In this document: positions 22,402-24,454 of the stretch, piece after piece | How the letters are laid out: each line of letters starts with the position of its first letter | How positions within the stretch are numbered: the first letter of the stretch is position 1 | Origin: Methanoculleus horonobensis | GTDB lineage: Archaea > Halobacteriota > Methanomicrobia > Methanomicrobiales > Methanoculleaceae | Assembly: GCF_001602375.1 (NCBI RefSeq) | Contig: NZ_BCNY01000013.1 | Location: 124,001 to 188,000, forward strand | Direction of reading: 5' to 3' | Length of the DNA stretch: 64,000 nt | Notes under the pieces: generated by a model | What the model saw: only the letters and a program-made list of their open reading frames with translations | What the model was told of the DNA's origin: nothing | Databases searched by the model: none | Program-made: the position numbers and the translations under genes

Positions 22402-23574
22402 TCAGAGATACATGCGGCTGTCCGGCGCCGCCGTCTCGCGCTTCACCTTCTTTATTGCCGCGAGGAAGTCTTCGCGCTCGACGGCATCGGCGTCCCGCCG
22501 GATCGCCATCATCCCGGCCTCACGGCAGATCGCCTGCAGCTCGGCGCCGGTGGTGTCTCCGGCGAGTTCCGCAAGCGAGGGCAGGTCAACGCTCCCGGCA
22601 AGCGACATCTTCGCGGTGTGAATCTTTAAGATCTCAAGGCGTGCTCCGGCATCCGGCAGCGGAACCTGGATGATCCGGTCGAACCGGCCGGGGCGGAGGA
22701 GCGCCGGGTCAAGCATATCGATCCGGTTCGTCGCCGCCATGATCCGGATGTTGCCCCGATTCCCGAACCCGTCCATCTCCGCCAGGAGCTGCATCAGCGT
22801 CCGCTGAACCTCGGCGCTTCCGGAGGTTCCGTCGTTTGTGCGCATGCTTCCGATCGCGTCGATCTCGTCGATGAAGACGATCGCCGGAGCGCGCTCCCGG
22901 GCGAGGATGAAGAGCTCGCGCACGAGCTGCGCGCCCTCCCCGATGTACTTGTGGACGAGTTCGCTCCCAGACATCCGGATGAACCGGGCCTGGGACTGGC
23001 GGGCAACCGCCTTTGCAATCAGGGTCTTCCCCGTGCCGGGCGGGCCGTAGAGGAGGATGCCCTTCGGGGGCTCCACGCCCACGCGCTCGTAGATCTCGGG
23101 CTTCGTGAGCGGGTACTCGACCGCTTCCCGGACCTCTTCGATCTCCTCCTTCAGGCCGCCGACCTGCTCGAACGTCACGCTCGGCTGCTCGTCGAGTTCC
23201 ATGACCCTGACTCTCGCATCGTAGATATTGCCGATCGTCTTGACGATGGAGAGGGTATTGTTCACCGCCACCTTCATTCCGGGTTTGAGGGTGCGGTGGA
23301 GTTTCTCGCTGACCGCGGTGACGTATTCCTGGTTGTTGCCCTGCTGCCGGAGATACACTTCGCCGTTCTCAAGTACATCGACCACAGCGGCAACAAACAG
23401 CGGCACCCGCTTTAACTGGGCGTTCTCTTTCCGGAGCTGCAAGAGTTCCTTTTCCAGCAACTCGTTCTTGAGTTTGTAGTCCAGGATCTGTGCCTTCAGG
23501 TCCTGGATCTGGAGAGTGAGCATGTCATGCTCGCTGCCAGGAGTGCTGCCAATGGTTTCGTCCATGTCACTCAT
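22402..23574 (-). CDS. pan: proteasome-activating nucleotidase, paralog 2 (HbYX tail)
   Basis: Second PAN of the window, 390 residues: coiled coil at about 15-57, OB domain 57-130, AAA domain with Walker A GPPGTGKT (Lys173), pore loop VHKYIGEG, Walker B IVFIDEID, and LLRPGRFDR. It ends MYL, a canonical hydrophobic-Tyr-X tail for docking in the proteasome alpha-ring pockets. Coiled coil and OB sequences differ strongly from paralog 1, so the two may form separate rings or differ in substrate choice (inference). The ATG at 23574 has GGAG 10 nt upstream inside a 28-bp palindrome; a TATAA at the palindrome centre would instead place the transcript start at this ATG. Confidence 0.95.
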   Translation of the reverse strand: MSDMDETIGSTPGSEHDMLTLQIQDLKAQILDYKLKNELLEKELLQLRKENAQLKRVPLFVAAVVDVLENGEVYLRQQGNNQEYVTAVSEKLHRTLKPGMKVAVNNTLSIVKTIGNIYDARVRVMELDEQPSVTFEQVGGLKEEIEEVREAVEYPLTKPEIYERVGVEPPKGILLYGPPGTGKTLIAKAVARQSQARFIRMSGSELVHKYIGEGAQLVRELFILARERAPAIVFIDEIDAIGSMRTNDGTSGSAEVQRTLMQLLAEMDGFGNRGNIRIMAATNRIDMLDPALLRPGRFDRIIQVPLPDAGARLEILKIHTAKMSLAGSVDLPSLAELAGDTTGAELQAICREAGMMAIRRDADAVEREDFLAAIKKVKRETAAPDSRMYL

Positions 23575-23584
23575 ATAGTTGGTT

Positions 23585-23612
23585 CTCCAACCACATTATA
23601 ATGTGGTTGGAG
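23585..23612. promoter_or_regulatory. perfect 28-bp palindrome between pan2 and the DUF126 gene
   Basis: Left arm CTCCAACCACATTA, right arm TAATGTGGTTGGAG, with no spacer and no mismatch. The centre reads TTATAA on both strands. It fills most of the 43-bp divergent intergenic region. It may be an operator acting on both genes, a bidirectional core promoter, or both. Each outer end carries GGAG on the strand of the adjacent gene, at a plausible Shine-Dalgarno distance from its ATG. Confidence 0.75.
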
Positions 23613-23617
23613 TGATC

Positions 23618-24016
23618 ATGCAAGGCAGAAGCATATCCAGGGGTATCGGAACCGGAGAACTCCTCATCTCGTCCGAACCCATATCGTTCCTCTCCGGTGT
23701 CGACCCCGAGACCGGCATCGTCGTCGAGCACGGACACCCGCTCGAAGGCCAATCCGTCGCCGGACGGGTGCTGGCCTTCCCGTACGGGAAAGGCTCGACG
23801 GTCGGATCCTACGTGATCTACGCGCTAAAACAGAACGGGCTCGCTCCTGCAGCGATCATCAATACGGAGGCCGAACCGATCATCGCGGTCGGCGCGATCA
23901 TCGCGGGGGTTCCCATGGTCGACCGCCTCCCGCCGGAGTTCTCCGATCTCCCGCCCGGCACCGCCGTGACGGTGAACGGCGATTCGGGCGAGGTCTCCTG
24001 CGACGGGACTTCGTGA
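23618..24016 (+). CDS. phosphomevalonate dehydratase small subunit (DUF126, aconitase X swivel domain)
   Basis: A 132-residue DUF126 protein. In archaea this swivelling domain pairs with the aconitase X-type large subunit to dehydrate 5-phosphomevalonate to anhydromevalonate phosphate in the archaeal mevalonate pathway for isoprenoid lipids (family knowledge). Characteristic blocks are ISRGIGTGELLISSEPISFL, DPETGIVVEHGHPLEGQSV and FPYGKGSTVGSYVIY, the last lining the active site. The large subunit is not in the window. The ATG at 23618 is preferred to the upstream frame start because GGAGTG lies 4 nt before it and the conserved N-terminus begins there. A J-domain gene follows after 6 bp. Confidence 0.92.
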   Translation: MQGRSISRGIGTGELLISSEPISFLSGVDPETGIVVEHGHPLEGQSVAGRVLAFPYGKGSTVGSYVIYALKQNGLAPAAIINTEAEPIIAVGAIIAGVPMVDRLPPEFSDLPPGTAVTVNGDSGEVSCDGTS

Positions 24017-24022
24017 GGCGCC

Positions 24023-24454
24023 GTGGAGACTCATTACGAGATCCTGGGCGTCTCACCCGACGCCACGCCCGACGATATCCGGGTAGCCTACCGGAGGCTC
24101 GCCAAACAGTATCATCCGGACGTAAACCACGACCCGGATGCGGGCGAGCGGTTCATCGCGGTTCAGCAGGCCTACGAGACGCTGATCGACCCCGACGCCC
24201 GGGCACGCTACGACCTCGCTCTCCGGGGCGGCTGCACGACAGGGCCGCACGACCCGTTCCAGCAGTACCGTCCCGGCGGGCAGACGGCCTGGACGCGAGG
24301 GTTCTCGTGGAGCGGACAGGCACCGGTTTCCTGGACCGGCAGGCTTGGCGTCGTGCTCCTCCTCTTCCTCGGAGGAGTCCTGATCGTCTTCATGCTCGTC
24401 CTGTCGCTCCTCTCTCGTGCCTTCTCTGGCGGCAAACGGCAGCAGGACTCCTGA
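24023..24454 (+). CDS. J-domain membrane protein
   Basis: A 143-residue protein. Residues 1-65 form a canonical DnaJ domain ([20 protein letters not shown], with the HPD motif in KQYHPDVN at about residues 31-33), followed by a Gly/Pro/Trp-rich linker and one membrane helix at about 110-132 ([20 protein letters not shown]) with a short basic tail. There is no Gly/Phe zinc-finger region, so it is a class III J protein that would recruit DnaK to the membrane. The start is GTG at 24023, 6 bp after the DUF126 stop, so the genes are probably co-transcribed. Confidence 0.9.

Follow-up and report, generated by a model that had tools for sequence, protein, structure and literature searches.

The perfect 28-bp palindrome between the divergent genes for proteasome-activating nucleotidase (pan) and a DUF126 protein in Methanoculleus horonobensis is probably a lineage-specific symmetric version of overlapping divergent core promoters that are conserved across the order Methanomicrobiales, a reading that we draw from comparative sequence analysis and that involves predicted transcript starts. 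The palindrome (CTCCAACCACATTATAATGTGGTTGGAG) was read directly at positions 23585-23612 of the 64,000-nucleotide stretch of DNA that we analysed (hereafter, the window). As the initial annotation described, its 14-bp arms pair exactly, without mismatch or spacer, around the centre TTATAA, and it ends at unpaired flanks (T 23584 and T 23613). Within it lies an inner 18-bp palindrome (ACCACATTATAATGTGGT, 23590-23607), which is the better-conserved part within the genus by column counts over 25 ungapped genomes.

In 384 kb of the genome (the window plus 320 kb of stretches from the same genome), this is the longest spacer-free palindrome and the only one of at least 24 bp, the next measuring 22, 20, and 20 bp. 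First-order Markov simulation of 1.5 Mb with the same dinucleotide make-up yielded 114 palindromes at 14 bp and about fourfold fewer with each added pair, down to 1 at 22 bp, and extrapolation puts the expectation for 28 bp at ~0.01 per 2.45-Mb genome. The palindrome is real and not a trivial product of chance, and on these counts the earlier judgement that a chance origin is unlikely stands. The same genome holds another long perfect palindrome, of 22 bp (TATACATTATTAATAATGTATA, L111:461-482; G000:C13:230461-230482). No second site for the 28-mer, or for its 20-mer or 18-mer cores, was found at up to 3 mismatches in the window and its own genome, and a search for the half-site, which the initial annotation had proposed, gave matches at the control level (6 + 4 at 2 mismatches vs 5 + 5 in the reversed control, own genome). 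A mobile element or repeat family was rejected because the palindrome is single copy, and a plasmid collection searched with it gave no match.

On the minus strand, pan (22402-23565) was identified by NCBIfam PRK03992 (568.7 bits) and Pfam AAA; a longer open reading frame starts at 23574. The start kept across genera reads M(D/E)E(T), here MDET from ATG 23565, while ATG 23574 falls within the predicted TATA box of the divergent DUF126 gene and arises from its CATATA spelling in Methanoculleus, at a place where other genera carry CTTATA or TTTAT. Beyond the genus, conservation extends to ATG 23565 alone, which argues that the longer start is probably wrong and corrects the likely pan start codon in Methanoculleus. 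The 43-bp promoter region of the initial annotation is probably shared by both genes, but its length presupposes the probable non-start at 23574; measured from ATG 23565, the gap comes to 52 bp. A pan paralogue, 57% identical, lies at ~18.5-19.8 kb of the window.

On the plus strand stands the gene for a DUF126 or aconitase X swivel domain protein (AcnX small subunit; 23618-24016; PF01989, 126.3 bits; NF003046, 173.3 bits), which in archaea we take to be the small subunit of the phosphomevalonate dehydratase of the archaeal mevalonate pathway. PMC10040528 describes the phosphomevalonate dehydratase of that pathway. Beside ATG 23618, GTG 23612 and GTG 23603 are available as DUF126 starts, and all three are possible because a stop codon separates the GTG equivalent to 23603 from the ATG in a Methanoculleus relative (L020/L078). 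A DnaJ-domain gene (24023-24454, plus strand; PF00226) follows 6 bp behind DUF126 and is probably co-transcribed with it; it occupies the same place in Methanoculleus loci (with a 36% identical one in L021), and no such gene was found at this position in most other genera. The C-terminal end of its product is a likely membrane helix. In Methanoculleus, a proteostasis gene thus flanks the promoter on either side (pan and the DnaJ-domain gene).

Gene order across relatives indicates that the divergent pair is old and conserved. We found pan and DUF126 head to head with a gap of ~50 bp in Methanoculleus, Methanogenium, Methanoregula, Methanomicrobium, Methanocalculus, and Methanospirillaceae, and among the 63 loci found with DUF126 a divergent pan was present in nearly every one from the Methanomicrobiales, the exceptions being those of Methanocorpusculum, one Methanocalculaceae genome, and L012. 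In most loci across the order, 48-53 bp separate the conserved pan ATG from the start of the DUF126 match, which is too small a space for separate promoters. One MAG carries DUF126 without an upstream pan (L012/L086, 894-1289) and a palindrome-like promoter on another contig (G023:C191:8818-8845), which suggests a second copy or a mixed bin. In Methanogenium and Methanomicrobium (L037/L033/L024), the DUF126 start lies four codons further upstream, and the gene looks leaderless.

Two TATA-like blocks, 20.5-23.5 bp apart, recur in the divergent loci of the Methanomicrobiales. The left one is spelled C[AT]TATA or TTTAT, and the right one ATTTAT, ATTTATTA, or, in Methanoculleus, ATTATAATG. The distance from the right block to the conserved pan ATG downstream of it is 30.5-33.5 bp in every divergent locus, and in the window the homologue of this block is the TTATAA at the palindrome centre (23596-23601, minus strand). 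Three genomes of the Methanocorpusculum group in which pan is not beside DUF126 (L119, L120, and L122) have ATATAAA ~32.5 bp before the MDE/MNE start, and no palindrome was found upstream of these unlinked pan genes; because the spacing of their TATA box is unchanged, we assign the right block as the predicted TATA box of pan. The left block precedes the sole available DUF126 start of Methanogenium and Methanomicrobium by 28-29 bp, and in the window GTG 23603 lies 28 bp from the centre of the predicted DUF126 TATA box (CATATA, 23572-23577, plus strand). Together with the preceding CACT, this box fits a promoter-like motif (AATCTTTAT) found de novo in 225 promoter regions of this genome, scoring 5.9 where the median of the best scores in these regions is 5.5. 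The TATA at the palindrome centre scores weakly (0.95) with the same motif, which is the main soft point of the overlapping-promoter reading. Each gene has a predicted TATA box at archaeal spacing, and each box overlaps the predicted start of the other gene. The suggestion in the initial annotation that the segment is a promoter region for both genes is supported, and the core is under constraint.

Given these positions and archaeal TATA-to-TSS spacing, DUF126 would be transcribed rightward from the box at 23572-23577, with a predicted start zone at 23598-23603 inside the palindrome, and pan leftward from the box at 23596-23601, with a predicted start zone at 23571-23577 outside it and either no leader or one of ~10 nt. 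Each TATA box would then sit on the start region of the opposite gene, and the two initiation complexes (TBP, TFB, and RNA polymerase) should exclude each other because each would cover the TATA box of the other. Such mutual exclusion would tie the output of the isoprenoid-pathway enzyme to that of the proteasome ATPase, with no dedicated regulator needed. The inner symmetry of the palindrome would consist of the self-complementary TATA core with its ACC/GGT flanks, and the outer 5 + 5 bp may have turned symmetric in one Methanoculleus clade only; chance substitution on a variant matching at 3 of 5 positions, or inverted-repeat template switching, would suffice. A single bidirectional TATA box for both genes was rejected, as it would place the rightward start at ~23623, ~5 nt inside DUF126 and past ATG 23618. 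A terminator was also rejected, the site having no T-run and lying between divergent starts.

How the palindrome varies among relatives bears on what its symmetry does. A search of 40 genomes of the family at up to 3 mismatches found the palindrome in 24, which all belong to one genus and carry it at a single locus each; the perfect form occurred in 6 Methanoculleus genomes only, always at the pan/DUF126 locus, and no match at up to 2 mismatches was found outside Methanoculleus among 150 genomes of the order. The initial annotation had regarded absence upstream of orthologous pan genes, together with uniqueness in the genome, as speaking against regulation. The palindrome is unique in its genome, yet a degraded form precedes pan in the genus, and beyond Methanoculleus it is absent. 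Among the 16 distinct sequences of the 25 ungapped genomes, the right inner TGTGGT (23602-23607) is invariant, and about half of the Methanoculleus loci retain the symmetric inner 18 bp. Within the genus, divergence at 4-fold sites of pan was 0.235. The bases surrounding the TATA box of DUF126 reached 0.03 and the left arm 0.067; on the right, the inner TGTGGT showed none (0), and the outer five bases reached 0.34. Relative to the 4-fold-site rate, this amounts to 0.29 for the left arm, 0 for the right inner arm, and 1.46 for the right outer arm, a value that comes largely from one split (TTGGAG vs TGGCAG) and is not to be taken as faster than neutral. Substitutions at mirrored positions were nearly all one-sided, and compensatory evolution of the arms was rejected, since the only compensated pair occurred in one genome.

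The initial annotation proposed a binding site for a dimeric regulator that would control both genes. An operator dedicated to this locus, whose bound factor would cover the pan TATA box and the DUF126 start and so repress both genes, is possible but unlikely in our judgement. Its position is ideal for repression, and the roughly half of the loci with a symmetric inner 18 bp, the invariant TGTGGT, the slowly changing left arm, and the order-wide conservation of TCTYCAACCA in the segment separating the TATA boxes are all consistent with it. Against it stand the single site per genome, with cores unique at up to 3 mismatches and half-sites at the control level, and the unmirrored substitutions of the two arms: the half-sites are neither conserved alike nor co-changing, the outer right arm being free and compensation almost absent. 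In addition, the ACCA...TGGT arms of other genera are 4 bp closer or missing, which leaves no fixed dimer geometry, and no regulator gene was seen adjoining the palindrome. No regulon copies were found at other promoters of the same genome, a result still compatible with a single-target regulator.

The left-arm consensus between the TATA boxes, TCT[CT]CAACCA, deserves separate mention. It is conserved across genera to a degree that exceeds what the spacer of a core promoter requires, which counts against overlapping promoters as the whole explanation and may point to a site for a protein beyond TBP and TFB. Somewhat less likely again than a plain operator is a combined model, in which the order-wide pair of mutually exclusive promoters within ~50 bp would act as a see-saw between PAN and the isoprenoid-lipid enzyme, tipped in Methanoculleus by a locus-specific dimeric factor reading either the palindrome or TCTYCAACCA.

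The perfect symmetry may also be purely mutational: template switching in the common ancestor of a single clade would have homogenised an imperfect inverted repeat that has no function beyond the underlying promoter. As the entire explanation we consider this improbable. Template switching is known to generate perfect inverted repeats (PMC8794818, PMC8604942). The perfect form clusters in one part of a tree that is weakly resolved at its base and is confined to one group of close relatives, while most of the genus reads TGGCAG where the palindrome has TTGGAG, a difference at two nearby positions that both match the other arm. Three members of the group have since lost perfection without compensation (TTAGAG, TTTGAG, and TTGGTA). 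On the other side, six genomes keep the perfect form, and the outgroup L094 reads GGTTGTA, so that TTGG may be older and the change may have run in either direction. Six genomes sharing a perfect palindrome of 28 bp is also a rarity, which weighs somewhat against the overlapping-promoter reading. Separately, L068 and L073, which are Methanoculleus from different parts of the tree, have an identical promoter variant upstream of DUF126 (AATCAC...GGTGGCAGTGACC), which suggests local recombination.

The initial annotation also saw GGAG at each outer end as serving the gene on that side and suggested a hairpin that hides both Shine-Dalgarno sites. GGAG is present at both ends. That of the right outer arm (23609-23612, plus strand; GGAGTGATC ATG) is well placed, 5 nt before ATG 23618, and is Shine-Dalgarno-like; it is not conserved elsewhere in the genus, most of which reads TGGCAG. 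On the minus strand, GGAG stands 10 nt from ATG 23574 but 19 nt from the conserved ATG 23565, and for the latter distance it was rejected as the Shine-Dalgarno site of pan. The hairpin is unlikely, and its full form, an RNA structure in both leaders acting, for example, as a thermosensor that controls pan and the DnaJ operon, is highly improbable. Transcribed in full, the palindrome would form an RNA with a 12-bp stem and a predicted folding energy of -18.4 kcal/mol, and pan and DnaJ are both proteostasis genes. But both transcripts are predicted to begin either within the palindrome or past it, so that neither would hold both arms, and the predicted plus-strand transcript from 23600 contains one arm and folds like shuffled sequence (z -0.04). 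The common genus variant (TGGCAG) has 2 mismatches and loses the outer pairing, with an unexceptional fold (z -1.7 vs -4.7). An Rfam search of the palindrome gave no match, and a structured RNA was rejected on that ground.

We consider the palindrome itself to be of moderate to low significance and the promoter overlap of somewhat more. To our knowledge, little is known about how methanogens regulate their proteasome ATPase or the archaeal mevalonate pathway. An overlap kept across an order, while the proteins share ~60-70% identity, offers a concrete and cheap test case for archaeal promoter competition, and the locus carries a caution that striking symmetry can be a local product atop an older, asymmetric signal. 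Compared with known systems, the site resembles the palindromic operators of dimeric prokaryotic regulators in being a perfect inverted repeat over a promoter, and differs from them in its one site per genome, the asymmetric evolution of its arms, and symmetry in one genus only. Bidirectional promoters of Pyrococcus furiosus use a symmetric BRE-TATA-BRE element in which one TATA box drives two starts 49 bp apart (PMC6640164); the present locus shares with them a self-complementary TATA core, the archaeal basal machinery, and divergent starts ~25-50 bp apart (predicted here), whereas a second conserved TATA box (23572-23577) here would serve DUF126. In the map of transcription start sites of Methanolobus psychrophilus, starts lie 19-22 nt from the TATA element (PMC5378194). 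The TATA-like boxes described here fit this type of archaeal core promoter (BRE/TATA), standing at the expected distance from predicted leaderless or near-leaderless starts, but unlike such single promoters, two of them overlap head to head within ~50 bp in an arrangement conserved over an order.
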